From positions 496,001-560,000 of the forward strand of contig NZ_CP018911.1 of NCBI RefSeq assembly GCF_004000605.1: a stretch of 64,000 bases of DNA, written 5' to 3'. A model generated the notes under the pieces. That model did no database searches, was not told where the DNA came from, and saw nothing but the letters and a program-made list of their open reading frames with translations. Source of the DNA: Glycocaulis alkaliphilus. GTDB taxonomy: Bacteria; Pseudomonadota; Alphaproteobacteria; Caulobacterales; Maricaulaceae. Shown here piece after piece: positions 23,443 to 37,200 of the stretch (position 1 is the first letter of the stretch; every line of letters starts with the position of its first letter). The translations under genes were made by a program, and so were the position numbers.

Positions 23443-24321
23443 ATGTCGAAAAAGCCGGTCCGCAAGGCCGTCCTTCCCGTTGCCGGTCTTGGCACGCGCG
23501 TCCTTCCCGCCACCAAGGTGATGCCCAAGGAAATGCTGCCCGTCTTTGACCGGCCGGCCATTCACTATGTCGTCGATGAGGCGCGCGCGGCAGGCATCGA
23601 ACACTTTGTTTTCGTCACCGGGCGCAACAAGGCCTCGATCGAGGATTATTTCGACACCGCCTACGAGCTGGAAATGACGCTGGAGGCCAAGGGCAAGACG
23701 AAGCTGCTTGAAGAGCTGCGCGCCGACCTGCCCGCGCCCGGCGCTTGCAGCTTTGTGCGCCAGCAGGCCCCGCTGGGGCTGGGCCATGCGGTCTGGTGCG
23801 CGCGCGATATTGTGGGTGATGAGCCCTTTGCCGTCCTTCTGCCCGACATGCTCATGCGGTCGGACGTGCCCTTCCTCGCCGCCATGACCAAGGCGTATGA
23901 GACGATTGGCGGCAATATCATCGCGGTTGAGGAAGTGCCGATGAGCAAGGTGAGCTCTTACGGCATTATCGATCCCGGTGAGCGCAAGGGCGAACTGATC
24001 GAGATGAAGGGCATGGTGGAAAAGCCTGCCGAGAAGGATGCCCCCTCCAATCTGATGATCTCGGGGCGCTACATCCTGCAGCCGGAAATCTTTGACGCGC
24101 TGGAAGAGCAAAAGCCCGGCGCGGGCGGCGAGATCCAGCTGACCGACGCCATGCTGCGGCTGATGGAATCGAGCCCCTTCCACGCCTTGCGTTTTGAGGG
24201 TGAGACGCTCGATACCGGGTCCAAGACCGGATACTTACGCGCCGCCGTCACCTACGGCCTTGGCGATCCCGAACATGGCGACGAGGTGCGCCGCATCCTG
24301 GAAGCGCTGCTGAAAGGGTAG
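23443..24321 (+). CDS. galU: UTP-glucose-1-phosphate uridylyltransferase
   Basis: Forms UDP-glucose for glycan and lipid glycosylation. PVAGLGTRVLPATKVMPKEM near the N-terminus is the nucleotide-binding signature, and GGEIQLTDAM and the LDTGSKTGY motif near the C-terminus are typical. The ATG used gives 292 residues; the longer open frame upstream overlaps glmS and is not likely used. GGAG sits just upstream. It forms an operon with glmS and is the last core gene before the accessory region. Confidence 0.95.
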   Translation: MSKKPVRKAVLPVAGLGTRVLPATKVMPKEMLPVFDRPAIHYVVDEARAAGIEHFVFVTGRNKASIEDYFDTAYELEMTLEAKGKTKLLEELRADLPAPGACSFVRQQAPLGLGHAVWCARDIVGDEPFAVLLPDMLMRSDVPFLAAMTKAYETIGGNIIAVEEVPMSKVSSYGIIDPGERKGELIEMKGMVEKPAEKDAPSNLMISGRYILQPEIFDALEEQKPGAGGEIQLTDAMLRLMESSPFHALRFEGETLDTGSKTGYLRAAVTYGLGDPEHGDEVRRILEALLKG

Positions 24322-24458
24322 GGGCGGGCAGAACCGCATGGTGAGCCAGCCATGCTCCGTATCGGCCCTTATTTCTGCAATGGAAACAGGCCTCTAGGAG
24401 CGTAAACAATTTACAAATCCTCGCCTAGCACGTGAAGGGTGAGCACCACAGTCAATAT

Positions 24459-26999
24459 TTACGGCGTAACGGAAGACGCGATCTTGGCCGTCACTAAACT
24501 GGTGATCTCTGAGTGCATATCAACGGGACAGCCGGGGGCAGAGATGGAAATCACCAGCGCATATCGCCCGCTGTCGTTGAACCGCTTTTGCCCTGGGTGG
24601 GTCTTCCACCAACCGGTTACGGGATATACACCGATAGCGTCATGCAACGCGAGGTCAATCGCCCGCCCGCGCCACAGGTCGCAATGCAGAGACCCAGCCT
24701 GAACTGCATTCGAGCCGAGGAGCCAGTAGTCGCCTTCCTGTTGCGGACCCGGCGCGTCCCTCTCTTGCTGGCCGGAAACCCGGCGTTTGAACTGGTCCTT
24801 TGTGTCGGACCGCTTCTTCATTGCGAAGCGGAGGCCAAAGGAGCGGTAGGTTTCCGGTCGGGTTGCCGCGCGACCGGACAAGTTCGGCTCAACGAAATAC
24901 GAAAGCGTCACTTTCATAGTGACTACTTCGTTTTCGATCGCTTCGAGCGCAGCCTTGGGCCAAGGTAAATCATAAAAGTGCATCTCGTTGAATACGGTGC
25001 CGCCATTCTCACCCTGAACAAAAGGTTGGATTGACGCCTGTGCGATCAACGTCACGTCATTGCTGGCCGAATTTATTGCACGTTGAAGATCGGGTACCCC
25101 ATAGCCGACTTCTCGTAGGATTGCTTGCTTTTCAGCCTTCGAGCCGGTTTTCCAATGCTGGCCCCTACCGATCAGACGCTTGCGGATTGGCCCGGGCCAG
25201 TTTGCGGAATCAACTGCCAATGCCCTCTGTGTCTCTGGCCAAAGCTCAGGCAGTGCGGCTTGCAGCGTGCCAATGAAATGCCCCGCCATTCCCGCCGCTG
25301 CGCTTGTGGCCCAGAACGGAACCAGCGGTTCTTCCAAAACGTCAGAACCGGGCGCAAGGAGCGCAACTGAGGGCCCCCAACTACAGTACCCAGAGGGGTC
25401 AGCAAGCATATTGCCCGCCTCGAATAGCACTTCGGGCTTGATCGGGGTGAGGTCTGAAGATAGCCCCTGCGACCCTAAGCTAAATGGACTGCGGTGGTTA
25501 GCAGGCACCACAGGCTTCAAGTCGGCTGGGGTTTCAGGTGGGGTTTCTTTGCCAGTAAAACCGCCAATCGTAAGCGCGTTCCAGCTTTGCGAAGGGTCTT
25601 CGATCGGGTGCGAGAGCTGAACGTCGGCGATGTTCCCACCGCACATGTTGCCTGTTGCGACCACCATTAGGCGTTTAGGTCTTTCTGCCGCTGGAACCCC
25701 ATCCGCTTGATCACCAGGCATTGCCCCCGAAGTGATCTGATCCAGTGCCCCGCTCCAACTGGATGGCCGCTCTGGCGGAAAATCACACGCGGAATTGGCA
25801 AGGCAGAACGCCCGACGCACGTTTGGCCTTTCTGTCTCCACCAGCGCGACGGCGCCCTCAGTCACGACTCCGTAGCTGGGAGGTTTAGTTCTAGGAAAGC
25901 CATTTGGCGGCAGTAGCTTCATAGACTCTACGGCATGGGTGAGTTCCACCTGCCGTGCGTCAGCCATTAGAGGTGCAAGATCGCCATAAAGCGCAATCCC
26001 GGCAAGCGGAGTGCCGTGCCCGCCGTGGGGATGGTGGTCATCTATGCCCCATGCCGCATCATAGGCCCAAGCGCCGTGCAGGGCGGGTGCAATAAGCGGA
26101 TGTTGTGCAGCAACACCGGTATCTAGCGCACAAACTGCATTTGCGTCCTTCGGGGGCGGCACAACACGCCCGGCAAGCTCTGCGGCCCAGTCTTGCTGCC
26201 CCAAGCCCTTCGCGCCTCGGTCGAGAAATGGTTCAATCGTATCCGTTGCTATCCTGATTTCTGCAACGGCGCCCGGGATCCGCTCGACAAATCCGACAAT
26301 TCTTTGAGCTGAGGCGTGGACATAAAGTACCGTTGTATCTGGGAAAACGAGTCGGTCTTGATGAACATCTAGCTCGGCTAGCCGTGCTGCCGCCGCGACC
26401 CCTTCTGCGATCTTGCCGTCATGGCGAACCCAAAGCTCCCACCAGAGGAGTTCTGGGGACGCGAAATCCAGTTTGCCGACAAATAGGGCATGGGCCTCGG
26501 CTGCACGGATGGTTTCCACCCGCTCGAATTTCTCCACGTCTGCCGGGGGCTGATTGCCCCGTGGCTGCCCATAGGAACGAATGCGGCCTTGCAGAAACGT
26601 CCGGGCATCGTCCGGCACAAAGAGGAGGGCGCTTTCCGTCCGGTCGTCACGCCGCTCTGATCGCAGCACAACTACATCCCGCGTGGGGAACTCCAATCCC
26701 TTAGGCAGCTTCACGGCTTGTGCGCGGCTGCCCTCTGCCGGGGGTATGGTGCCCACTTCGACGATGGCACCAGCCTTCAAGCCTTCCACCGGCAAACGAC
26801 CATCCTGCCCGGCAATGGGAATGTCCCCCAAGGCTGCCGTCAGTTGGTCGAGAAGTGCCTTTGAATGCGCAGCATAGTCATCTCTGAGCGGCTTGGGTTC
26901 AATTTTTCGCCGGGGAAAAGAATAGCCGATCCCGTCCCGAAAAACGTCGAACGAAATATGTACATGTTTGCGCGCGTCGTAATCACCCTGCTCTGCCAT
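24459..26999 (-). CDS. ietS: Subtilisin-like serine protease of an IetAS-type system
   Basis: An 846-residue S8-family protease. The catalytic triad is visible as Asp293 (ALDTGVAAQHP), His328 (GGHGTPLAG) and Ser566 (FWATSAAAG), with the oxyanion Asn451 in VVATGNMCGG. About 270 residues precede the protease domain and about 250 follow it, with no signal peptide, so it should act in the cytoplasm. The partner ATPase gene ends 58 bases upstream on the same strand. AAA ATPase plus subtilase pairs are known as IetA/IetS, described as a toxin-antitoxin pair on an Agrobacterium plasmid and as an anti-phage system. Base composition is less GC-rich than the flanking core genes, consistent with transfer. 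Confidence 0.82.
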   Translation of the reverse strand: MAEQGDYDARKHVHISFDVFRDGIGYSFPRRKIEPKPLRDDYAAHSKALLDQLTAALGDIPIAGQDGRLPVEGLKAGAIVEVGTIPPAEGSRAQAVKLPKGLEFPTRDVVVLRSERRDDRTESALLFVPDDARTFLQGRIRSYGQPRGNQPPADVEKFERVETIRAAEAHALFVGKLDFASPELLWWELWVRHDGKIAEGVAAAARLAELDVHQDRLVFPDTTVLYVHASAQRIVGFVERIPGAVAEIRIATDTIEPFLDRGAKGLGQQDWAAELAGRVVPPPKDANAVCALDTGVAAQHPLIAPALHGAWAYDAAWGIDDHHPHGGHGTPLAGIALYGDLAPLMADARQVELTHAVESMKLLPPNGFPRTKPPSYGVVTEGAVALVETERPNVRRAFCLANSACDFPPERPSSWSGALDQITSGAMPGDQADGVPAAERPKRLMVVATGNMCGGNIADVQLSHPIEDPSQSWNALTIGGFTGKETPPETPADLKPVVPANHRSPFSLGSQGLSSDLTPIKPEVLFEAGNMLADPSGYCSWGPSVALLAPGSDVLEEPLVPFWATSAAAGMAGHFIGTLQAALPELWPETQRALAVDSANWPGPIRKRLIGRGQHWKTGSKAEKQAILREVGYGVPDLQRAINSASNDVTLIAQASIQPFVQGENGGTVFNEMHFYDLPWPKAALEAIENEVVTMKVTLSYFVEPNLSGRAATRPETYRSFGLRFAMKKRSDTKDQFKRRVSGQQERDAPGPQQEGDYWLLGSNAVQAGSLHCDLWRGRAIDLALHDAIGVYPVTGWWKTHPGQKRFNDSGRYALVISISAPGCPVDMHSEITSLVTAKIASSVTP

Positions 27000-27057
27000 C
27001 AAACTCCGCCCCGTGACTCAGTAGGTCGACCATTCAAGTCAAGTTATACGGGCAAAG

Positions 27058-28068
27058 TTAGACTTCGGAACCCCTCCGAAACTTACCTTTCAAAGTCTGC
27101 CGATCACGAAGAGCCGCGCGCAACGCGTCAGTCGAAATCTTCACAGCACCGTCGATAATCGCGTCTTTAACCACAGAATCCGCAGCCCGGACCAATTCTC
27201 CTGGGCTTAACCCTGCCAACGCGGGTGACAACGCAGTCCACGACCGGGTATTCAGCCTAAACTTGCCTAGCCGCTTCTCAACAATCGCCCGCGCTGCATC
27301 GGGTTCAGGCAACACATATTCAACAACCTCGTCGAACCGCCGGGCTAGTGCCTCGTCCAAGATTTCGACATGGTTTGTCGCGGCCAGCACAAGGCTATCC
27401 GTGGAGTTCGGCTCCTCCATAAATGAGAGCACCGAGTTTAACACCCGGCGAATTTCGCCTACGTCGTTTGGATCACCCCGGCGCGCGCCGATGGCATCAA
27501 ACTCGTCGAGAAGATAAACGCCCCTGGTCTGCGCGATCTGATTAAACAGAACGCGCATCTTGGCGGCCGTTTCGCCGAAGTACCGGCTGAACAAAGATTC
27601 CAGCCGGACAGTGAACAAAGGCAGCCGTAATTCCCCGGCCAGCGCCAAGGCTGTCATGGTCTTGCCCGTTCCCGGTGGCCCGACAAGAAGCAGATGGGTA
27701 GCAGGTTTCTGCCCGAAATCCCGAAGCGTGGCACGCTCATGTTGTTGGCGCACCACGCGGGCCAAGCGATTCCGCACATCGTCCGCCAGAACCATGTTCG
27801 CCAAGGTTGTCTTGGGATAGGTGCTTTCGACAAGCCCCTGAAGCTCAGCTCGCGGCCGCGCCATCGGGATCGGGGTTTGCCCGCCTATCGGAGAACCTAT
27901 GCGGCGCTGGTCACGGGCCTTCTGTACGAGGCGCTTAAGCTTCTCGGCATCATCTGATTTACCGTCACGTGCCTGTTGCGCAGCAATCTGCATCGCGACG
28001 GACAGAAATTGATCCTCATCGCCTTCGATGTGAGAATTGAGAAGGGCGAAAATGTGCCGCGTTGTCAC
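27058..28068 (-). CDS. ietA: AAA+ ATPase of an IetAS-type system
   Basis: A 336-residue protein with one AAA+ module. Walker A is GPPGTGKT at 130-137, Walker B VYLLDEFD at 184-191, sensor 1 is in LAATNHVEI, and an arginine-finger-like ARRFD follows. The first 90 residues are helical and could bind the partner. The start is GTG with GGAGG seven bases upstream. It is the first gene of a two-gene operon with the subtilase and in the IetAS model would control or deliver substrate to it. The operon starts 178 bases outside the left end of the integrated element. Confidence 0.82.
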   Translation of the reverse strand: MTTRHIFALLNSHIEGDEDQFLSVAMQIAAQQARDGKSDDAEKLKRLVQKARDQRRIGSPIGGQTPIPMARPRAELQGLVESTYPKTTLANMVLADDVRNRLARVVRQQHERATLRDFGQKPATHLLLVGPPGTGKTMTALALAGELRLPLFTVRLESLFSRYFGETAAKMRVLFNQIAQTRGVYLLDEFDAIGARRGDPNDVGEIRRVLNSVLSFMEEPNSTDSLVLAATNHVEILDEALARRFDEVVEYVLPEPDAARAIVEKRLGKFRLNTRSWTALSPALAGLSPGELVRAADSVVKDAIIDGAVKISTDALRAALRDRQTLKGKFRRGSEV

Positions 28069-28245
28069 TCGTTAGCCTCCTCTCGCTCGAAGGTCATTAA
28101 ATTGTAATATGACGACATCGTAACCAGTTCCAAGTTTAAGAACGTTTACCCGAACCGGCGATTTTGCGCCATGGAAAAGAAGCCCGTAACTTCGTGCCTC
28201 TCCCGCCCGAATTTCAAATTCAAAGACTTATTCGGAGAAAGTAAT

Positions 28246-28261
28246 TGGTGGGCCCGGAGGG
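28246..28261. other. attL core of the integrated element
   Basis: TGGTGGGCCCGGAGGG is repeated exactly at 37,124-37,139, where it forms the CCA and acceptor/T-arm end of the tRNA gene. A 16-base match at the two ends of a segment with an integrase next to one of them is the standard mark of tRNA-targeted integration. The bases after the core here differ from the tRNA, so this is the displaced copy. Confidence 0.88.
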
Positions 28262-28287
28262 GCTGGACCTTCCTATACAGAGCAAGG

Positions 28288-28304
28288 GGTTAGCGTGTCT
28301 AACT
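28288..28304. repeat. Left arm-type inverted repeat, candidate integrase site
   Basis: GGTTAG and GTGTCTAAC form an inverted pair 27 bases inside attL. The same GTGTCTAAC occurs at the right end near attR (37,051-37,059) with an inverted partner. Motifs shared by both ends of an integrated element are typical of arm-binding sites for the integrase or excisionase. Confidence 0.55.
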
Positions 28305-28507
28305 AGCTCAAATCCAGCGAAACAACATCAATGCGTTAGCTCTGCAATGGCTAACCATTTCCCCCAGCCTGACAGGCTGGCAAGAAAAACCCCGGCGCGG
28401 GATGGAGAGCCGCAGCGCCAGGGTCAAAACGGATGCAGCAACCAAACAGCAATCCTCAATAATCGCTACACCTTTCCGGCCTTCAAGGCAAGCGCAGGGA
28501 GGGTGTC

Positions 28508-29311
28508 ATGACGGCCTCGCGCGCTTACAGCCCACCCAAACCTTTCTGGCGGCAAATCAGCGAGCTTCGCGAGGCTATTCGCCGCAGCGACATGAACCCT
28601 TCGCACCGCATCGTTGCATTGGAATTGCTGGAGCTGGTCAACGGCAACAAGGGCTTCTCATGGCCATCCGTCGATTGGCTGGCAGAGCAACTTCACCTCT
28701 CGCGCAGCACCGTACTGCGCGCCCTCAAGGAGGTCGAAGGCCGGTTCTTTGAGGTGATCCGTGCGCCCATGAAAGGCCGCGCCGCCGTCAACCAGTATCG
28801 CCCGATCTTTCACCCGGAACCCGCCGAAAAAACGCGCGCCGATCAGGCAAAATCCCGCGATAAATGGTGTCAAAATGACACCAATACCGGCCATTCTGGC
28901 GAGGGAAATAGTGTCACCAGTGACGCGGAAATAGTGTCACCCACGACACCGTATATAGGTAATGAGATATATACACACGCGCGCGAAGGACGTGACACCA
29001 AACCCACGCCCAGCGCTAGGCGGAAGCTCCCACCCGATGATGCGCCGCCCGTTGATCAAGCCGCATGGCGAGCCGATTTCAAGGCGAGGTTCGGTGTCGA
29101 TAAGTTCCGGCAGAAGGCCGCAGGCTGCAAGGTGGCCGGGTCTCGTTTGCTGGCACCCAGCAAGCTAATCGCTATCGAGCTTAACGAGCGCTACCGCCCG
29201 TTCTGGCGAGAGCACGGCTTTACCGGCTTCCTGTCCGAGAACGAACCGGACTGGTTTTGCGAGCTGCCCCCTTCAACGTTCGCAAGAGCTACCAGCAAGG
29301 TTGCTGCGTGA
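28508..29311 (+). CDS. Helix-turn-helix replication-type protein of the element
   Basis: A 267-residue protein whose N-terminal 90 residues form a winged-helix domain (SHRIVALELLELVNG, FSWPSVDWLAEQLHLSRST, VLRALKEVE), as in phage O-type and RepA-like initiators. A hydrophilic linker follows and then a conserved C-terminal segment (FGVDKFRQKAAGCKVAG to EPDWFCELP). The linker-coding DNA holds iteron-like repeats and an AT-rich tract, so the gene probably contains the origin it serves, as lambda O does (inference). It is the first gene after attL and overlaps the HNH gene by one base. Confidence 0.65.
   Translation: MTASRAYSPPKPFWRQISELREAIRRSDMNPSHRIVALELLELVNGNKGFSWPSVDWLAEQLHLSRSTVLRALKEVEGRFFEVIRAPMKGRAAVNQYRPIFHPEPAEKTRADQAKSRDKWCQNDTNTGHSGEGNSVTSDAEIVSPTTPYIGNEIYTHAREGRDTKPTPSARRKLPPDDAPPVDQAAWRADFKARFGVDKFRQKAAGCKVAGSRLLAPSKLIAIELNERYRPFWREHGFTGFLSENEPDWFCELPPSTFARATSKVAA
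28863..28999. other. Putative replication origin with iterons inside the rep-like gene
   Basis: GAAATAGTGTCACC occurs twice, 23 bases apart (28,905-28,918 and 28,928-28,941). Related GTGTCA or TGACACC units are at 28,867-28,872, 28,876-28,882, 28,944-28,950 (CGACACC) and 28,992-28,999. An AT-rich tract (28,951-28,978) lies between the last two. Iterons plus an AT-rich unwinding region within an initiator gene is the phage-lambda-type origin layout. Confidence 0.6.
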
Positions 29312-29646
29312 TGGCTGTCTGGCCGTACTCAACTGCGAACTGGCAGAGGCTTCGGCTTCGCAAGCTGTCCGAACAGCCATTGTGCGAGGTCTGCACAAAG
29401 CTTGGCAGGATCGTGCCTGCCTCTCACGTGGATCATCGCATTGCCATCGCCAAGGGCGGCGAAGCATTCCCACCACTCGAAGGGCTGGCGGCGCTATGCG
29501 CCTCCTGCCACTCGCGCAAGACCAACGCCGAAGATAATCCCCACGCCTTCGGCTTTGGCCCAGCGAAAGGCTGCGACCCAAGCGGCGCTCCGCTGGATGA
29601 TACCCACCCCTGGGGGGCCTCAAATCACGAAAAGCCTTTGGTTTGA
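29311..29646 (+). CDS. HNH endonuclease
   Basis: A 111-residue protein with a zinc-type CEVC pair, the HNH core HVDHRIAIAKGG and a second pair in LCASCHSRKT. HNH proteins next to terminase genes assist DNA cleavage during head packaging in many HK97-type phages and in cf-PICIs. Its ATG overlaps the stop of the preceding gene (TGATG), so it is translationally coupled. Confidence 0.85.
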   Translation: MAVWPYSTANWQRLRLRKLSEQPLCEVCTKLGRIVPASHVDHRIAIAKGGEAFPPLEGLAALCASCHSRKTNAEDNPHAFGFGPAKGCDPSGAPLDDTHPWGASNHEKPLV

Positions 29647-29703
29647 GGACCGGGGGGGAGCTTTTTCACAGAGTTAGTTTCAAAAATGGGAAGGACTGAA
29701 CTG

Positions 29704-30066
29704 ATGAAGACCGAAGAAACCGCTACCAATGAGCTGACCTTGGGCCGGGCGATGGCCGACTACCATCTCGCACACTCGCAGTTCTATGCTGCAAGCCACG
29801 CGCAACAGCCCGGACAGACTGCCGAAGATATCGAAACGGCTTATGAGGCGTTCCGTGCCTCGTTCAAGCGCGCGATCGAGCTGCCGGCGCGAAACCTTGG
29901 CGACCTGAAAGCGAAGCTAAGGCTCTATCTCAGCCACGAAATGGAGTTTCTCGACCCCGAACATACGAAATTCCTTGTTGACCTGATGGCAGACGTTGAC
30001 GGGATTTCCGATCAAGCGAACGCCGTTCGCCGGGAAGCCTACGTTTCGCTGTCAGAGCTGCAATAG
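29704..30066 (+). CDS. Small helical protein before the terminase, unknown
   Basis: 120 residues, predicted to be almost all helix, with no cysteine and no recognised motif. The ATG used follows GGAAGGA at good spacing; an upstream ATG would add six residues. The place between HNH and large terminase is where a small terminase subunit would be expected, but I see no helix-turn-helix or family signature, so that role is only a possibility. It ends ten bases before terL. Confidence 0.55.
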   Translation: MKTEETATNELTLGRAMADYHLAHSQFYAASHAQQPGQTAEDIETAYEAFRASFKRAIELPARNLGDLKAKLRLYLSHEMEFLDPEHTKFLVDLMADVDGISDQANAVRREAYVSLSELQ

Positions 30067-30076
30067 GGGCATTGGC

Positions 30077-31750
30077 ATGGGACGGCGCGGCCCCGGAGCG
30101 ACACCAGCCCCCAAGGATCAGGGGGAGAACGTCTTTCCCCTGTTCGAGGGTAAGCTGACAGCTCCGACGCTGCCCGCTCCGGTTCGGCGCTGGCGTGATG
30201 AGGAAGGGCTTTCGAGAGCGGAACGGGTAATTGCCTTTCTCGAAGACCTGCCCATCACGTCTGGCGCACATGCTGGGCGCAAGATGACCATACGGCCGTG
30301 GCAGCGCGACATTGTGAACGGCATCTACGCAACCGATAGCGACGGCGCGCGTCCGGTGCGAACGGCGGTTGTGTCCATGCCTCGCAAGAACGGAAAGACG
30401 GCGCTTGCTGCCGGTCTGGCACTGGCGCACCTGCTAGGCCCCGAAGCCGAGCCGCGCGGGCAGGTCTATTCTGCCGCCGTGGACCGTGATCAGGCCGCGC
30501 TGATCTACAATGAAATGGTGGCGATGATCAAAGCCGACCCTGAGTTCTCGCGCCGCGTGAACGTGCAGGCTTTCGCCAAACGGATCGAAGACTATGAAAC
30601 CGGCTCGACCTACGCCGCCCTTTCATCGGATGCGCGCAAGGGCCACGGGCTGAACGCCTCTTTCGTGATCTATGACGAGCTGGCCCAGGCGCGTGACCGC
30701 AAGCTGTTCGAGAGCCTCGCAACCAGCATGGGTGCGCGAGCTGAACCGCTTATGGTTGTGATCTCCACCCAAGCCGCTGACGATACGCACTTCCTGTCCG
30801 AGCTGATCGATTACGGTCAGCAGGTACTTTCAGGCGTCACGCAAGACCCCAGCTTTCACCTGACGCTGTACAACGCGCCAGAGGATGCAGACCCTTGGGA
30901 TGAAGCAACGTGGTACGCCTGCAATCCGGCGCTGGACGACTTTCGCAGCCTTGAGGAATTCAGGACGTTCGCGAAGCGCGCGGCGCGCGTTCCCAGCCTC
31001 GAAAGCACGTTCCGCAATCTGTATCTCAACCAGCGCGTTGACGCGGAAGCGCGCTTTATCAACCGCGTTGAATGGGAGAGCTGCGCCACGGTGCCGGATC
31101 GCCGGGCGCTGCGTGGCAAGGCCTGCTTTGGAGGTCTGGACCTTGGCGCTACCCGCGACCTCACAGCGCTTGTTCTGGTGTTTCCAGATGAACAGGGCGG
31201 GTTTGATGTGCTGCCCTATTTCTGGTGTCCCCGCGATCTCTTGCGCGAAAAGGAGGATGCGGAGCGCGTCCCGTACTTCACGTGGGCGAACAAGGGTTTC
31301 ATTGAGGCCACGCCCGGCAAATCGACTGATTACGGGTATGTGGTCCAGCGGCTTGGCGAGCTGGCGCAGGAATTCGATATCAAGAGCATTGCCTATGACC
31401 GCTGGCGCATTGAGGAACTGCGCAGGCAGCTCGACGCGGAAGGCGTGAACTTGCGCCTGACCGAATGGGGGCAGGGCTTCAAGGATATGAGCCCCGCCGT
31501 CGATGCGCTGGAAACTTCGATAATCGACAGCAAGCTTCGCCATGGCGCACACCCCATCCTGACATGGAACGCGTCTAACGCGGTTGTGGACCGGGACGCC
31601 GCAGGGAACCGGAAGCTTTCAAAGGACAAGTCGCGGGAGAAAATCGACGGGCTGGTTGCGCTGGCCATGGCCATTGGCCTGTCACGCCGGGATACCGGCG
31701 AACGCCGTTCGCCTTCCTGCCTGACGGACGGGCCGATCATCCTGATGTAG
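30077..31750 (+). CDS. terL: Phage terminase, large subunit
   Basis: The motor and nuclease that packages DNA into heads. Walker A is SMPRKNGKTAL, Walker B FVIYDELAQ, and the C-terminal nuclease begins at GGLDLGATRDLTAL with further acidic residues downstream. The 557-residue length is normal for the HK97-like type. The N-terminus reads MGRRGPGATPAPK, like the start of P27-type small terminase subunits, before the ATPase begins at about residue 70. It is the only recognised packaging enzyme gene in the element besides HNH. Confidence 0.92.
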   Translation: MGRRGPGATPAPKDQGENVFPLFEGKLTAPTLPAPVRRWRDEEGLSRAERVIAFLEDLPITSGAHAGRKMTIRPWQRDIVNGIYATDSDGARPVRTAVVSMPRKNGKTALAAGLALAHLLGPEAEPRGQVYSAAVDRDQAALIYNEMVAMIKADPEFSRRVNVQAFAKRIEDYETGSTYAALSSDARKGHGLNASFVIYDELAQARDRKLFESLATSMGARAEPLMVVISTQAADDTHFLSELIDYGQQVLSGVTQDPSFHLTLYNAPEDADPWDEATWYACNPALDDFRSLEEFRTFAKRAARVPSLESTFRNLYLNQRVDAEARFINRVEWESCATVPDRRALRGKACFGGLDLGATRDLTALVLVFPDEQGGFDVLPYFWCPRDLLREKEDAERVPYFTWANKGFIEATPGKSTDYGYVVQRLGELAQEFDIKSIAYDRWRIEELRRQLDAEGVNLRLTEWGQGFKDMSPAVDALETSIIDSKLRHGAHPILTWNASNAVVDRDAAGNRKLSKDKSREKIDGLVALAMAIGLSRRDTGERRSPSCLTDGPIILM

Positions 31751-31754
31751 TTTC

Positions 31755-31812
31755 GTACGCATAGCGTACAAAACGCTTGACCGGAGTTTTTCATTCGTGC
31801 AGCGTATGAAAC
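31755..31812. promoter_or_regulatory. Pair of palindromic operator-like sites after terL
   Basis: GTACGCATAGCGTAC (31,755-31,769) is a perfect inverted repeat, and TTTCAT...ATGAAA (31,789-31,811) a second imperfect one; both share TTCGT and GCGTA cores. They fill the 62-base gap before the next gene and are its most likely operator. A TTGACC lies between them, but no well-spaced -10 was found. Confidence 0.5.
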
Positions 31813-32454
31813 ATGGTTCGTAAGATCACCACACCGAAGGCGGTAACCGCACTGTCTCAGGCGCTCAATGTGCCGGAAGGACGCCTTCGCGTGAGCGCGA
31901 TTGAAATGCGCAAGCATAAAGATGAGCTGCTGCCGAGGGGGCCAGCGGGCCGGGGCGCGCCGGAACTTCAACCCTACCACATTGCACGTCTCCTTTTGGC
32001 GGTACTGCTCGACCCAAAAAATCCTCACGATGCACCTGAGAATGTTGCGTATTTTGGCCTTTTGCCATTGTGTGAAATCACCCGTGCCGAAGACGCCCCT
32101 GACTTTTTCGGAGAGCTTGGTTTCGGTATCGGGGCCACGCTTGAGACCGTTTTGGCTAGTGTGCTTTCTGGTATCGGGCGCGAAGAACAGGACTTCTTGT
32201 CAGCGTATCGCGCTGCTGAACGCGATCTCGAAGACAAGCTGAAAGCCCTCCGGCTCGAAGTCCGCTTTTCACACCTCGAAGCAATCTTCACCGCATTTGG
32301 TGTAGAGTATCGCTTCTCAAGATATCCAAGCGAACGTCGCGAACAGGTCGCGGATACCACCGCGATTTTTGAGCCAGTTGAACGCAGCGCTGCCATCGAA
32401 ACAGGTGTTTTCTTTCATTGCGCAGAAGTGTTCGCGGAGGCCCGCGAACAATGA
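31813..32454 (+). CDS. Unknown element protein, possible DNA-binding regulator
   Basis: A 213-residue protein I cannot place firmly. The first 60 residues (TPKAVTALSQALNVPEGRL, then RKHKDELLPRGPAGRGAPEL and HIARLLLAVLL) look like a helix-turn-helix followed by a basic turn. The middle is hydrophobic and the end acidic. It interrupts the packaging genes and is preceded by two palindromes, which suits an autoregulated control protein for the downstream head genes (inference). A 175-base structured gap follows. Confidence 0.5.
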   Translation: MVRKITTPKAVTALSQALNVPEGRLRVSAIEMRKHKDELLPRGPAGRGAPELQPYHIARLLLAVLLDPKNPHDAPENVAYFGLLPLCEITRAEDAPDFFGELGFGIGATLETVLASVLSGIGREEQDFLSAYRAAERDLEDKLKALRLEVRFSHLEAIFTAFGVEYRFSRYPSERREQVADTTAIFEPVERSAAIETGVFFHCAEVFAEAREQ

Positions 32455-32503
32455 CGATCTTCAGTACACCCCACTTTCCTTCAAGCGCGGTGCGGCGCTT
32501 CGA

Positions 32504-32568
32504 GCTGGCCGGGTTGGGGTGTGGCAGGGGCGGGCGACGGTTCCCCTGTCCAGAAGTGCCCGGCCAGC
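32504..32568. other. Nested stem-loop upstream of the capsid gene
   Basis: GCTGGCCGGG and CCCGGCCAGC form a perfect 10-base inverted repeat, with a second CAGGGG / CCCCTG pair inside its loop. It lies in the 175-base gap between the unknown protein and the capsid gene. It could stop or attenuate transcription, stabilise the capsid message, or be part of a packaging site; there is no T-run to make a standard terminator. Confidence 0.5.
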
Positions 32569-32629
32569 ACGTACCAAGCCTAAGCCCGCCGAGAGGCGCG
32601 TTATCCCTTAGATGGAGTTTTTTTCTCTC

Positions 32630-33922
32630 ATGACACTCGCAGAACTTAAAGAGCGGCGCGCCAAGAAAGTGGCAGAGGCCCGCAAGATCAGCACCGACGC
32701 GGGAGCTTCGCCAAGCGATGACGCCCGCAAGCGGTTTGATGAAGTGGAAACGGAAATCCGTTCGCTTGACGAACAGATTACCCGTGAACAGAGGCTGGCC
32801 GAATGGGAGCGCTCTGCCGAGGCCGATCCGGTTTCCGGCTCTGACGGCGATTTCCACAATGCTTGTCAGGCGTTCTCGATTACGCGCGCGGTTGCGGCTC
32901 AGGTGCCTGATCTCGCGCCGTATGTTGACGCCGGGCGCGAGCGTGAAATCTCGCAAGAGCTGGCGCGCCGCTCCAACCGGTCGGTGAACGGCATTCTGGC
33001 CCCGATGGCCGTGTTTCAGGAAAAGCGGGTGCTCACCAGCACCACACCGGCTGGCGGGCCGGGATCGAATATCATCCCGACCCAGCAAGGCGAGTTCATC
33101 GACATTCTGCGCGCGCGCCTGCTGGTACAGCAACGCGGCGCACGTGTCCTGTCTGGCCTGTCCGGCAATCTGGACCTGCCCAAGCTGAAAGCGTCCGCTA
33201 CGGCGGGCTGGGTAGCGGAGAACACCGCTCTCACGCCGAGCGATCACGAATTCACCAAGGTGCAGATGACACCAAAGCATGTCGGCGCACTGACAGAATT
33301 CTCGCGCAATATGCTGCTGCAATCGTCACCCGATATCGAACAGCTCATTCGCGCCGATTTCGCGTCTGTGCTGGCCGAAGCGGTGGACGCCGCCGCCATT
33401 CAGGGCGGCGGTTCAAACGAGCCGAACGGTATCCTAGAAACGGCCGGGATCGGTACGGTTGACTTCTCTACGCCGGGCTGGGCTGCCGTTCTCGAATTCA
33501 TCGAGAAAATCGCAACCGCGAACGCCGATGCCGGTGCCATGGGCTGGGCAACCAACCCGAGCGTGGTGCGCCTGCTGCGCTCTACCTTGAAGGTGCCCAC
33601 CGACGCCGGTGCGGGCTTCTTGATGGACGGGCCAGGCGAACTGGCCGGTTATGCCCTTTCGTCCAGCACTATCGTTCCGAACAATCTCAGCGATGGCGGC
33701 GACCCCGAAGAGCTGGACCGTTCGGCGCTGATATTCGGCAACTGGTCTGACCTTCTGGTTGGCTACTGGTCCGCGTTCGAAATTCTGGTGAACCCGTACG
33801 AGAGCACGGCCTACAAGAAGGGCAATGTTCAGGTGCGCGGCATGATCACTTGCGACGTAGCAGTGCGCCATGCCGAGAGCTTCGTTGCCGCCACCAATAT
33901 CGACACGGCGCAAGGCGGCTAG
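32630..33922 (+). CDS. HK97-family major capsid protein
   Basis: A 430-residue capsid protein. The first 100 residues are a charged coiled-coil delta domain (LAELKERRAKKVAEARKI, DEVETEIRSLDEQI) that scaffolds assembly and is normally removed by the protease encoded next. The rest carries family features such as GWVAENTALTPSD, VGALTEFSRNML and the conserved ALIFGNWSDLLVGYW near the C-terminus. An upstream ATG would add six residues without a better ribosome site. Confidence 0.92.
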   Translation: MTLAELKERRAKKVAEARKISTDAGASPSDDARKRFDEVETEIRSLDEQITREQRLAEWERSAEADPVSGSDGDFHNACQAFSITRAVAAQVPDLAPYVDAGREREISQELARRSNRSVNGILAPMAVFQEKRVLTSTTPAGGPGSNIIPTQQGEFIDILRARLLVQQRGARVLSGLSGNLDLPKLKASATAGWVAENTALTPSDHEFTKVQMTPKHVGALTEFSRNMLLQSSPDIEQLIRADFASVLAEAVDAAAIQGGGSNEPNGILETAGIGTVDFSTPGWAAVLEFIEKIATANADAGAMGWATNPSVVRLLRSTLKVPTDAGAGFLMDGPGELAGYALSSSTIVPNNLSDGGDPEELDRSALIFGNWSDLLVGYWSAFEILVNPYESTAYKKGNVQVRGMITCDVAVRHAESFVAATNIDTAQGG

Positions 33923-33925
33923 GCC

Positions 33926-34546
33926 ATGAACAGCACGCTTCGCCCCCGCATCATCATGCCCCCAGCCTCTCTGGTTGGCGGGCTGTCACGCGAACGCCGT
34001 TCGCGCGGTATTGGCGGGGGCGATGCCGTCGCTGAGACACGCGCCGTTCCGCTGGAATATCGCGCCAAAGGACGCCGCCTTGAAGGCTATGCGGCGTTGT
34101 TCGATACGCCTGCCGAAATTGGCGACTTCACCGAAGTGGTGAAGCCGGGTGCCTTCCGGGCAGCGCTAGAAGCCAATGATATTCTGGCGCTGTCAGACCA
34201 TGACCCCAACCGCCTGCTGGCCCGTACAAGGTCTAAAACCCTGCGTCTTGCCGAAGACAGCCGGGGCTTGGCCTTCGATTTCGATCTGCCTGATACCCAG
34301 CTTGGCAGAGACGTTCTCGCCCTAGCTGAACGCGGCGATCTGGGCGGCATGTCGTTCGGCTTCAATGTGAAGCACGGCGGCGACACATGGGAAGGTCGCA
34401 AGCGGTCACTCATTGCGGTTGATCTTCGCGAAATCAGCGTCGTTTCGGCTTTCCCGGCCTATGACGGCACCGTCATCAGCGCCCGTTCTCGCGGCGAAGC
34501 CAGCCCGCTTGATCTGCGCGTTCGCCTGATGGAGCTAGGCCAATGA
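33926..34546 (+). CDS. HK97-family prohead protease (S78)
   Basis: Cleaves the capsid delta domain during head maturation. The 206-residue protein shows EGYAALFD, the catalytic His in LSDHDPNRLLART and the Ser in GGMSFGFNV, followed by REISVVSAFPAYDG. It begins three bases after the capsid stop and overlaps the portal gene by four bases. In most phages this gene precedes the capsid gene; here it follows. Confidence 0.92.
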   Translation: MNSTLRPRIIMPPASLVGGLSRERRSRGIGGGDAVAETRAVPLEYRAKGRRLEGYAALFDTPAEIGDFTEVVKPGAFRAALEANDILALSDHDPNRLLARTRSKTLRLAEDSRGLAFDFDLPDTQLGRDVLALAERGDLGGMSFGFNVKHGGDTWEGRKRSLIAVDLREISVVSAFPAYDGTVISARSRGEASPLDLRVRLMELGQ

Positions 34547-35802
34547 AAAACCCGCTCTCCACCATAAAGGCCATGTTCTCGCGCCTCGAACAGCGGGCCG
34601 GACACTTCGCCGGGAGCGCCGATCCCGAACCCGCCTTGCCGCCCATATCCAGCGGGCTTTTTGACGGTCTGATTGCTGCGCACGTGGATCCGGAACGCGC
34701 TTCACGCCATGCTGTCGCGCTCCGGTGCATCGCAGTGCAGGCCGAGAACCTCGCGGCGGTGCCGCTGAACCTTTACCGGCGCACCTCCAACGGTGGACGC
34801 GAAAAAGCGTCTGATCACCCCCTGTATACGGTGCTCCATGACGCCCCCAATGGTGCCCTTACGGCCTATGAGGCGCGCGAGTTCCTTACCACTGCCCTGC
34901 TGATTTATGGCAACGCCTATGCCCGGCTTGAGCGCAATGGCCGGGGGCAGGTCACAGCGCTGTACCCGCTCGATCCGCGCGCCGTCACTGTCGAACAAAT
35001 CCGGGCCACGGGACGCTTGCGATACCGGGTGAGTGAAGCGCGCGGCGGCAATTACGTGCTTACCGCCGATGAAATGCTGCACCTGAGATACCGCCTCGAC
35101 CGGGCCGGTATCATGGGGCTTTCACCGCTTCGCCTCGCCAGCGAAACCATGGGGCTCGCACTGGCACAAACAGAGCTGGCGCAAGCCCAGGCGGTCAACA
35201 GCTTCCGTCCAGCCGGTTTCCTGTCCTTCCCTGAGACCCTCAATGCGGAACAACGCAATCAGGTTTCAGGTGCGTTCAAAAACCAGCTCACCGGCTCGCT
35301 GCGCACCAACTCGCTTATGGTGCTCGACGGCGGCGTGAAGTTCGAAGCGTTCTCGATACCGTCGAAGGACGCGGAATTCCTCGAAAGCCGGAAGCTCGCC
35401 AATCTGGACGTAGCCCGCATCTTTGGCGTCCCGCCGACAGTGGTTGGAATTCCAGACCATGCTACCTATTCGAACGTCGAACAGGAAAGCCGGGCACTTG
35501 TGCAGCGCTGTCTTTTCCCGCTCGCCAAGCGGATAGAACAGGCGATGACGGCAACGCTCATCAGCCCGGCCAGCCGTGGCGAGCTGTTCATTGAGCATGA
35601 CCTTGCCGGGCTGATGCGCGGCGATATCAAGTCCCGCTATGACGCCTACAAAATCGGCCGGGAATGGGGATGGCTGTCACCGAACGAAATACGCGGCTGG
35701 GAGAACCTTCCCGCCGTCGACGGCGGCGAGGAATACCTTTCCCCGCTCAATATGGCTCCACTGGGCAGCCGTGCGCCCGAAGAAGCGGGGGCAGGCCAGT
35801 GA
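34543..35802 (+). CDS. HK97-family portal protein
   Basis: Forms the ring at the head vertex through which DNA is packed. The 419-residue length and segments such as AVALRCIAVQAENLAAVPLN, YGNAYARLERN, HLRYRLDRAGIMGLSPLRLA and FGVPPTVVG are typical of the family. It overlaps the protease (ATGA) and, at its end, the next small gene (GTGA). A portal last in the head cluster is the reverse of the usual terL-portal-protease-capsid order. Confidence 0.92.
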   Translation: MKNPLSTIKAMFSRLEQRAGHFAGSADPEPALPPISSGLFDGLIAAHVDPERASRHAVALRCIAVQAENLAAVPLNLYRRTSNGGREKASDHPLYTVLHDAPNGALTAYEAREFLTTALLIYGNAYARLERNGRGQVTALYPLDPRAVTVEQIRATGRLRYRVSEARGGNYVLTADEMLHLRYRLDRAGIMGLSPLRLASETMGLALAQTELAQAQAVNSFRPAGFLSFPETLNAEQRNQVSGAFKNQLTGSLRTNSLMVLDGGVKFEAFSIPSKDAEFLESRKLANLDVARIFGVPPTVVGIPDHATYSNVEQESRALVQRCLFPLAKRIEQAMTATLISPASRGELFIEHDLAGLMRGDIKSRYDAYKIGREWGWLSPNEIRGWENLPAVDGGEEYLSPLNMAPLGSRAPEEAGAGQ

Positions 35803-36002
35803 GTACCCGCCGCAAGATACCATTCACTCAGGCGGAGATGAAGCGGCTTCTCGACGCTGCCCGCTTGAGCGGTATCGAGCGGCCAGTTCCGGTGTGCCGG
35901 GTGCTGCCTGATGGCACTTGCGAGTTGACGGCGCGCTCTGAACGCACCGACGCTGTTTATTCTGACGCGAACGAATGGGATAGGGCGCTTGGCCTCGATT
36001 AG
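35799..36002 (+). CDS. Small protein before the integrase, possibly excisionase-like
   Basis: 67 residues from a GTG start that overlaps the portal stop. It begins MSTRRKIPFTQAEMKRLLDA, a basic helical segment, and ends in an acidic tail (DANEWDRALGLD). Small proteins with this kind of basic, QAEMKR-like start often precede tyrosine integrases in alphaproteobacterial islands; some may be directionality factors, but no function is proved. It overlaps the integrase by 14 bases. Confidence 0.6.
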   Translation: MSTRRKIPFTQAEMKRLLDAARLSGIERPVPVCRVLPDGTCELTARSERTDAVYSDANEWDRALGLD

Positions 36003-37116
36003 GTTGAAATACGTTTCATCCTTTACGGATCGCCACGGGAAGCGGCGCTATCGCTTTCGCCGGAAGGGCGCGCCTGCCTGTTACCTGCCCGGAGAACCGG
36101 GAAGCAAAGAGTTCATGGACGCCTATGATGCGGCCATAAAAGGCGAGCTGGGCGCGGTGGCGCCCGTTGGCGTGAACCGCGCACCGCCCGGCAGCCTGTC
36201 TAATCTCATTGCGATCTACTACGGCTCGACCGCGTTTGACGGCCTTGAGCCTTCAACCAAGCGCACTTACCGTGCCAGCCTTGAGCCACTCCGCGACAAG
36301 TATGGCCAGCTCGCCGTACGGACTATGCAGACCAGGCATGTCGAAGCCATGGTGCGCGCGCTGGGGGACCGGCCCGCATCTGCCAACAAGCTGCTAAAGA
36401 GGCTCAAGACGCTTTTCGAGCTTGCCGTTAGAATGGGCTGGCGCACCGATAACCCCGCAGCGCCGGTGCGGCCCTACAGGATCAAGAGCGACGGCTTTCA
36501 CGCGTGGACCGAAGACGAAATTCACGCCTTCAAAACCGCGTATCCGAGCGGCTCGCGCGAACGTCTGGCGCTGGCGCTGTTGCTGTGCACCGGCCAGCGC
36601 AGCGGCGACGTGGCACGTATGGGGCCGCAAGCAATAGTGCGCCTACCTGACGGTGCGAGGGCGATCAAGCTCAGGCAGCAAAAGACCGGCAAGGCACTTC
36701 TATTGCCGATCCTGCCGGAGCTTGAACGGGAGCTTGCTGCCGGCAACGCCTCACATCTGGTGTTCATAGTGACTGAATACGGCCGCCCGTTCAGCGTGAA
36801 AGGCTTCCAGCAATGGTTTGCCGCGCGGGCAAAGGCGGCAACCGGCAATGACCGCTGTACCGCCCACGGCCTTAGGAAGGCCTGTGCTGTGCGGCTGGCC
36901 AATGCCGGGGCCACGTCTCACCAGATACAAGCTATCACCGGGCACACAAGCCTGTCAGAGGTTCAGCATTACACCGCCGCGCGCGATCAAGTTCAGCTCG
37001 CGCAATCTGCCTTTGGCCTTCTCTCAGGCGGCACAAGTGGCGAACACACAGTGTCTAACCTGAGCAAAAGGTTAGACAGTTCTGAGCCTAAACCCATGAA
37101 AGCAAAGGAGAAATAA
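35989..37116 (+). CDS. int: Tyrosine recombinase (integrase) of the element
   Basis: A 375-residue site-specific recombinase. The N-terminus (ADRHGKRR-like YRFRRKGAP) is an arm-binding domain, a SAM-like core-binding domain follows (LEPSTKRTYRASLEPL), and the catalytic residues are Arg in CTGQRSGDVAR, HGLRKA with the His-x-x-Arg pair, the GHTS histidine and the HYTAA tyrosine. The start is TTG, inside the preceding gene. The gene ends eight bases from attR, and arm-type repeats lie in its last 66 bases. Being last in the head operon means its translation is coupled to the portal. Confidence 0.92.
   Translation: MASIRLKYVSSFTDRHGKRRYRFRRKGAPACYLPGEPGSKEFMDAYDAAIKGELGAVAPVGVNRAPPGSLSNLIAIYYGSTAFDGLEPSTKRTYRASLEPLRDKYGQLAVRTMQTRHVEAMVRALGDRPASANKLLKRLKTLFELAVRMGWRTDNPAAPVRPYRIKSDGFHAWTEDEIHAFKTAYPSGSRERLALALLLCTGQRSGDVARMGPQAIVRLPDGARAIKLRQQKTGKALLLPILPELERELAAGNASHLVFIVTEYGRPFSVKGFQQWFAARAKAATGNDRCTAHGLRKACAVRLANAGATSHQIQAITGHTSLSEVQHYTAARDQVQLAQSAFGLLSGGTSGEHTVSNLSKRLDSSEPKPMKAKEK
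37051..37078. repeat. Right arm-type inverted repeat, candidate integrase site
   Basis: GTGTCTAACC and GGTTAGACA form an inverted pair inside the 3' end of the integrase gene, 46 bases from the attR core. The left end of the element carries the same GTGTCTAAC. The symmetric placement suggests binding sites for integrase or excisionase. Confidence 0.6.
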
Positions 37117-37123
37117 ATGCACA

Positions 37124-37139
37124 TGGTGGGCCCGGAGGG
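37124..37139. other. attR core, within the tRNA gene
   Basis: The 16-base core TGGTGGGCCCGGAGGG is the reverse complement of the tRNA 3' end including CCA, so integration leaves the tRNA intact. It matches attL exactly. Confidence 0.88.
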
Positions 37140-37200
37140 ACTCGAACCCCCAACCAAGCGGTTATGAGCCGCCGGCTCTGACCAGTTGAGCTACAGGCCC
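37124..37200 (-). tRNA. tRNA with CAU anticodon (Ile2 or Met)
   Basis: A 77-base tRNA with an encoded CCA. The acceptor stem GGGCCTG pairs with CGGGCCC (one G-U), the anticodon loop is CTCATAA (anticodon CAU), and the T loop is TTCGAGT. The anticodon arm GGCGGCTCATAACCGCT is closer to the lysidine-modified isoleucine tRNA than to elongator methionine, but identity should be taken from a classifier. It is the integration target of the neighbouring element. Confidence 0.9.

Follow-up and report, generated by a model that had tools for sequence, protein, structure and literature searches.

The window analysed here is a 64-kb stretch of DNA (C1:496001-560000) from the 3.02-Mb, single-contig genome of Glycocaulis alkaliphilus, and it contains an integrated element of 8,894 bp (window 28246-37139) that carries phage-type head and packaging genes. 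An exact 16-bp repeat, TGGTGGGCCCGGAGGG, lies at either end of the element, with identical plus-strand copies at 28246-28261 and 37124-37139. The right copy coincides with the last 16 bases, that is the 3' end, of a tRNA-Met(CAT) gene on the minus strand (37124-37200), which is the target gene and still intact, and the integrase gene of the element ends 7 bp before this copy. As shuffled sequence gave a mean of 1.44 matches to the repeat at up to 3 mismatches, it is the exact identity and the position of the copies that carry weight. Both of these, together with the adjoining integrase and the empty sites described below, rule out that the repeats arose by chance. An earlier note on this DNA, made from the letters alone, had proposed exact 16-bp attachment (att) repeats in a tRNA gene, and these are borne out.

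All genes recognised between the repeats by Pfam and PHROG scans lie on the plus strand. The first one encodes a replication-initiation-like protein of the phage O-like type (28508-29311; HTH_36, PF13730, 5.6e-08; phrog_391, 1.2e-07) and is followed by an HNH endonuclease gene (29311-29646; PF01844, 2e-09; phrog_2323, 2e-23; scanned as 29299-29646), whose start is probably the ATG at 29311 that overlaps the stop codon of the initiator gene, as judged from the reading frame. Between the HNH gene and the gene for the terminase large subunit TerL (30077-31750; phrog_9, 1.3e-141) lies orf126 (29686-30066), which encodes a helical protein (fold model with mean pLDDT 72) that had no PDB match at E 0.001 and a single weak PHROG match of unknown function. 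Downstream of TerL, orf213 (31813-32454) could encode a DNA-binding regulator or a small terminase subunit; family searches gave no match for it and its fold model was unreliable. In eight relatives, the genes at the corresponding position share just 15-21% identity with orf213 in the alignment, and an orf213 family was therefore not upheld. Fold comparisons of orf126 and orf213 likewise gave no informative match that would identify either as small terminase subunit (TerS) or connector.

The head genes proper encode an HK97-type major capsid protein (MCP; 32612-33922; PF05065, 1.5e-33; with PDB matches to capsid proteins), an S78-type prohead protease (33926-34546; PF04586, 4.8e-39), and a portal protein (34543-35802; PF04860, 8.3e-100). 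A small open reading frame (ORF) of 67 aa (35799-36002) is linked to the portal stop by a GTGA overlap and itself overlaps the start of the tyrosine integrase gene (35989-37116; PF00589, 1.4e-19; phrog_1, 2.2e-42). It had no family match and is a candidate excision factor; similar sequence is found at the same place in four relatives (L024, L032, L041, and L082). The terminase, HNH, capsid, protease, and portal genes named in the earlier note were thus all recovered, with the O-like initiator in addition. Its statement that all genes are intact and overlap tightly held in part: all genes recognised in the element have open reading frames, and overlaps of a few bases join initiator and HNH, protease and portal, portal and small ORF, and small ORF and integrase, but orf213 is flanked by gaps of 62 bp and 157 bp.

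The empty sites that the earlier note had suggested looking for are present in three of the five same-genus genomes (G001, G003, and G005). In these, the homologous sequence breaks off at window 24321-24325 and resumes at 37123 after 38-205 bases, and att is present once, at the tRNA gene, whereas G002 and G004 matched on the right flank only. Because the empty-site synteny joins 24321-24325 to 37123, the strain-specific insert is approximately 12.8 kb long (about 24326-37122) and larger than the element. It also includes an IetAS-like anti-phage pair on the minus strand (24459-28068; an S8 protease and an AAA ATPase; PADLOC: IetS 7.1e-29, IetA 1.6e-68), which occupies the interval from the chromosome junction to the left att repeat and is absent from the site in the three same-genus genomes. 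That this pair is cargo of the element is unsupported, as the left repeat separates it from the element and a third copy of the repeat was not found in the 64-kb window at up to 3 mismatches. Elsewhere in the genome, a second tRNA-Met locus (L079, C1:609738-610825) has downstream sequence that is similar at about 77% identity, with att present once.

In agreement with the earlier note, no tail or lysis gene was recognised in the element by Pfam or PHROG and no connector gene by models derived from relatives, which also detected no head-completion gene. The tail and lysis modules of an ordinary prophage are thus not seen. The gene set resembles that of the capsid-forming phage-inducible chromosomal islands (cf-PICIs), which are integrated, have their own head and packaging genes, and use the tails of a helper, as described in two papers (PMC10690885, PMC13230959). 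Like these, the window element sits at a chromosomal site between att repeats and has an integrase, its own capsid, protease, and portal, its own HNH and large terminase, and no recognised tail or lysis genes, and helper tails are proposed for it as well. The head-tail connectors that cf-PICIs encode themselves were not found in it.

Many relatives share this design of a head-and-packaging set without recognised tail or lysis genes. A portal search of genome contigs gave 16 loci at 48-60% identity, all of them in Alphaproteobacteria; IMG/VR contributed 21 contigs with a portal match, 18 at 53-61% and 3 at 32%, and four further members (L082-L085, from genomes G177, G134, G166, and G170) were found among 199 genomes near that of the window. 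In a portal tree of 59 rows, 33 portals of tail-less loci form one clade with a support of 100/99. These portals are 41-61% identical to the window portal, their loci have the order MCP-S78-portal, and the clade is separate from distant alphaproteobacterial prophage-type loci, from the portals of gene transfer agents (GTAs), and from five phages. In a phage collection, 1,996 of 50,697 records matched, all below 60% portal identity, and the 30 best-ranked reached at most 40.2%. According to the tree labels, the hosts include Rhizobiaceae, Nitrobacteraceae, and Roseobacteraceae; L032 is from Oceanicella and L035 from Haematobacter missouriensis, and environmental strains with members also include Gemmobacter aquatilis, Sulfitobacter, and Chelativorans intermedius. 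Seven rows (L042, L043, L044, L046, L048, L053, and L054) were dropped as apparent copies in our judgement, L053 additionally having an integrase match split between frames, and the broken L099, the short first-look loci except L018, and the repeats L119-L122 were also left out of the trees.

Where the contig shows it, the gene order of the close relatives is HNH-TerL-variable gene(s)-MCP-(connector)-S78-portal-integrase, with the exceptions of L082, which had no HNH match, and L083-L085, in which both HNH and TerL were unmatched. Counted across the whole portal clade of 33 loci, HNH was matched in 20, TerL in 21, MCP in 31, and both S78 and portal in all 33, many of the missing matches being due to contig ends. 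The integrase follows 54-1189 bp past the portal match in 25 of the 33 loci. Among the other eight, L023 has an integrase by Pfam, L085 and L098 have it at the opposite end with a tRNA gene after the portal, and L047 likewise has a tRNA gene there, with a match at the opposite end that weakly resembles an integrase; the sequences of L040 and L045 end less than 600 bp from the portal, L035 is broken with an adjoining tRNA gene, and L049 showed no integrase in 4.4 kb, where two larger ORFs had no Pfam match.

Sixteen elements, including that of the window, are bounded by att repeats of 15-51 bp and measure 8.9-11.2 kb (the window element, L022, L026, L030, L032, L034, L036, L037, L039, L041, L050, L051, L082, L083, L084, and L085). 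ARAGORN placed a tRNA gene at the repeat in 12 of the 16; a search of related genomes for the same gene set at tRNA sites was among the checks that the earlier note had proposed. These elements contain 125 non-core ORFs of at least 50 aa on the plus (element) strand, of which 124 were scanned after omission of the L026 integrase. None of them matched a Pfam family of tail, baseplate, holin, or lysin proteins; the 20 Pfam families found in all (E 0.001) comprise connectors, head-completion proteins, primases/helicases, helix-turn-helix proteins, a transposase, and a few others. In the PHROG scan, tail and lysis families were also missing among the first 25 of 66 families; completeness is thus limited to the Pfam list. 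The earlier note had named tail and lysis genes inside the same element in close relatives as evidence that would speak against a satellite, and none were found in these ORFs.

Considering these data, we think it rather probable that the window element belongs, in its integrated state, to a lineage of phage satellites of Alphaproteobacteria that form their own capsids and work like cf-PICIs. Upon infection by a helper or upon induction, the integrase and the small ORF product as candidate excision factor would excise a circle at the 16-bp repeats, and the O-like protein would begin replication with the host machinery. HNH and TerL of the element would then pack element DNA into its own HK97-type head, made with capsid, S78 protease, and portal, and a helper phage would provide tails and lysis. 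For the window copy, it would have to provide the head-tail connector as well, for which most relatives have a gene of their own. Once complete, the particle would inject the element, which would integrate at tRNA-Met.

Several points weigh against this satellite reading. Besides the connector and head-completion genes, neither TerS nor AlpA nor an Stl-like regulator was recognised in the window copy, and the helper need, excision, packaging, and particles are predictions from the gene content. The tail-less label ('sat') is our own call from the layout, and L086, which was labelled other, also looks tail-less and has an integrase after the portal. The ORF scans of the att-bounded elements were limited to one strand, and in L025 TerL and MCP were unmatched in 4.3 kb upstream of its protease. 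L099 is a ruin with fragments of TerL and portal, and 3 of the 33 loci have frame-split matches, namely L031 (protease), L035 (protease and portal), and L038 (HNH), although some frame-split loci come from draft or metagenome assemblies and the splits may be sequencing errors. In the TerL tree (40 rows), the tail-less loci do not form a single clade; two changes are needed, and L086 and L087 nest inside, together with L047. As L086 and L087 nest there, terminases have been exchanged with prophage-type loci. Finally, the analysis of selection could not include the window copy, which has no close enough relative.

Part of this evidence would also be expected if the loci were shrunken prophages, that is ordinary prophages that decayed repeatedly and independently and lost their tail genes: the head genes are of phage type, the ruin L099 and the frame-split genes exist, and TerL partly groups with prophage-type loci. 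However, the portals form a single clade, and the order MCP-S78-portal-integrase differs from that of the distant loci L100-L111, of which 9 of the 12 have TerL and then portal (TerL follows the portal in the other 3), and from that of the phage record L112, which also has TerL and then portal. The narrow size range argues against repeated decay, too, as does selection. In eight close pairs and six genes, 33 of the 48 combinations were feasible, the rest having no match in one locus, and the ratio of nonsynonymous to synonymous substitution rates (dN/dS) was 0.056-0.263 in 30 of these 33 gene-pair comparisons and could not be given in the remaining 3. These ratios are rough because many dS values are near or above 1, and the frames were taken from stop to stop and so include some untranslated upstream bases, but they support purifying selection on the head genes of the close pairs. 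The view of the earlier note that decay from a full prophage is less likely gains support from this selection and from the conserved tail-less relatives, and its opposite case, in which all relatives would be visibly degraded prophages, was not found, with L099 and the three frame-split loci as relatives that are not intact. We consider shrunken prophages improbable as the explanation. That the element is a mere fragment of a GTA or of a prophage was ruled out by the portal tree and the layout.

The missing connector raises a different question. A gp6-like connector was found in 24 of the 33 loci and a head-completion protein in 10 (model sources counted); the connector model was built from three members and the head-completion model from two, and Pfam confirmed all five proteins. 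The nine loci without a connector are the window copy, L025, L033, L038, L040, and L082-L085. In this respect, the satellite-like, head-forming element envisaged in the earlier note is supported by its relatives, but its missing connector is atypical of them. Conceivably, the family does consist of true satellites, but the window copy has recently become defective, with connector-less heads that cannot take a tail. Such a defect would agree with the presence of the connector in most relatives, and also with the finding that PF05135 and PF05521 had no match in the whole genome at E 0.001, in searches whose controls were each positive in 3 of 14 known genomes. On the other hand, at least three changes in the connector are needed on the tree, and L033 and L082-L085 form a supported connector-less clade (100/99), so that the connector-less loci are not all scattered wrecks. 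In this clade, the MCP and protease ORFs overlap or are 42-138 bp apart, and the att repeats are in place in L082-L085; moreover, the genes recognised in the window element have open frames. We therefore judge a defective window copy unlikely, if deserving of serious consideration.

The relatives form a graded series at the head-tail joint, from members with connector and completion protein over members with the connector only and members with neither to members without a recognisable terminase. The latter, L083, L084, and L085, are att-bounded and carry capsid, protease, portal, integrase, and a primase/helicase-type gene, and neither a connector nor a terminase was recognisable in them, the latter neither by TerL match nor by terminase family. 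The most economical reading is that helpers provide a larger share of the neck for the connector-less forms and, in addition, the packaging motor for L083-L085; alternatively, any single connector-less copy could be defective. The series would make the required contribution of the helper directly testable by comparison of natural variants.

One relative links the family to GTAs. In Chelativorans intermedius, a family element (L021:1658-14533) interrupts the terminase gene of an RcGTA-like cluster. The terminase runs up to ...EDEM upstream of the element and continues beyond the integrase, and a single terminase ORF results when the two flanks are fused at an 8-bp core. The portal after the element matches the solved RcGTA portal Rcc01684 at 1e-115. 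The window genome has its own RcGTA-like cluster, L088 (portal against Rcc01684, 1e-111), and the connector of this cluster, with 3.2e-09, is the only one that the connector model of the family matched in the scanned stretches of this genome. The host's own GTA could thus be imagined as the helper, whose necks and tails complete the heads. Against this, L021 is the only compared locus that is embedded in a GTA, while 12 of the 16 att-bounded elements are at tRNA genes, and the connector model rates GTA connectors (3.2e-09 and 3.2e-12) no better than that of the prophage-type L087 (7.4e-14). Since GTA-like portals are common in these genomes, co-occurrence means little, and the window genome has another capsid locus with a tape-measure match. 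As L021 is one case, the GTA as helper is speculation, and we give it hardly any credence. Slightly less remote, but still very improbable, is a wider scenario of a separate alphaproteobacterial lineage of capsid-forming satellites that is in the process of losing its neck (and, in certain members, its terminase), with a GTA supplying neck and tail in at least some hosts and one member residing inside a GTA terminase gene. The element itself is not a GTA: such agents are head-and-tail clusters that lack an integrase and att sites, and the element has both. GTAs have their own tails and no integrase. RcGTA-like GTAs provide HK97-type head genes in the same hosts, but their portals branch apart from those of the family.

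The window genome also contains another small phage-derived locus (L126, C1:1612000-1631900) with an integrase, an initiator-like gene, a head protease, an HK97 capsid, and a tape-measure-like protein, in which portal and terminase were not recognised.

The distribution of the family is patchy. In an even sample of 385 alphaproteobacterial genomes, nine contained a sequence matching the L021 portal with E 1e-50 or better, three of them at 53-71% identity (the window genome, G448, and the broken G526) and six at 31-35% (L100-L105), none of the latter with the order MCP-S78-portal. Within the family of G448, 4 of 394 genomes matched at E 1e-80 or better. Such a rare and patchy distribution fits mobile DNA. 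It speaks against the idea that the heads serve another purpose without transfer, for example interference with infecting phages, as does the retention of TerL (21 of 33), HNH (20 of 33), and integrases, none of which a decoy would need. Tail-less capsid genes could in principle act on incoming phages, and the defence pair adjoins the element, but we regard this purpose as extremely improbable.

With respect to known systems, the term cf-PICI denotes here a resemblance in function and gene set, drawn from published descriptions, and not an established membership. The cf-PICI host groups named in a passage of PMC10803314 include no Alphaproteobacteria, and the average size of 14 kb given there exceeds the 8.9-11.2 kb of the window lineage. 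Unlike cf-PICIs, the window copy has no recognisable connector, TerS, AlpA, or Stl-like gene, and three relatives have no recognisable terminase. PMC13230959 mentions 900 published cf-PICI capsids. In published trees, cf-PICI capsids fall into three distinct radiations (PMC11389934), and the capsid of an E. coli cf-PICI branches with the RcGTA capsid (PMC12846349). A PDB search with the window capsid gave the 8gta capsid and the RcGTA capsid as top matches; cf-PICI capsids are perhaps not among the entries.

A like head set in a non-phage element is found in cf-PISP, a capsid-forming satellite plasmid of Vibrio, which is episomal with parA/repA (PMC13230959), whereas the window element is integrated. 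A 16.9-kb circular plasmid of Roseomonas mucosa (pTT14-8, CP099479.1; L118) carries portal, protease, capsid, HNH, and terminase genes and no annotated tail gene, and in the portal tree it branches with L101, L104, and L105; it is possibly an alphaproteobacterial capsid-forming satellite plasmid, perhaps nearer to cf-PISP. The Streptomyces satellites MulchRoom and MiniFlayer likewise bring their own genes for capsid and packaging and depend on a helper (PMC10690885). By their description, they differ in phylum, in their virulent helpers, in their direct terminal repeats, and in having no obvious replicase, whereas the window element has an O-like initiator. Helper-embedded PICIs lie in late genes of prophages (PMC10111431); the Chelativorans member likewise lies in a late gene of a phage-derived locus, which is a GTA, whereas the window element lies in a tRNA gene.

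Capsid-forming satellites illustrate that a mobile element can have a head of its own and take just the tail from elsewhere. If the satellite reading holds, the alphaproteobacterial lineage would widen the known host range and offer environmental strains for study. No report of such elements in Alphaproteobacteria was found among the listed titles and abstract openings of the open literature, a search outside of which lay the founding cf-PICI paper and the SatelliteFinder survey, and the sole co-occurrence of 'cf-PICI' and 'Alphaproteobacteria' in the open literature sits in the reference list of PMC10690885.

Two side aspects of individual family members may be added. The att-bounded element L022 contains an IS4/IS5-type transposase gene (L022:4474-5346). 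Just beyond the element L036, a second integrase-like gene lies in opposite orientation (L036:12507-13589, minus strand) and perhaps belongs to a neighbouring island at the same site.

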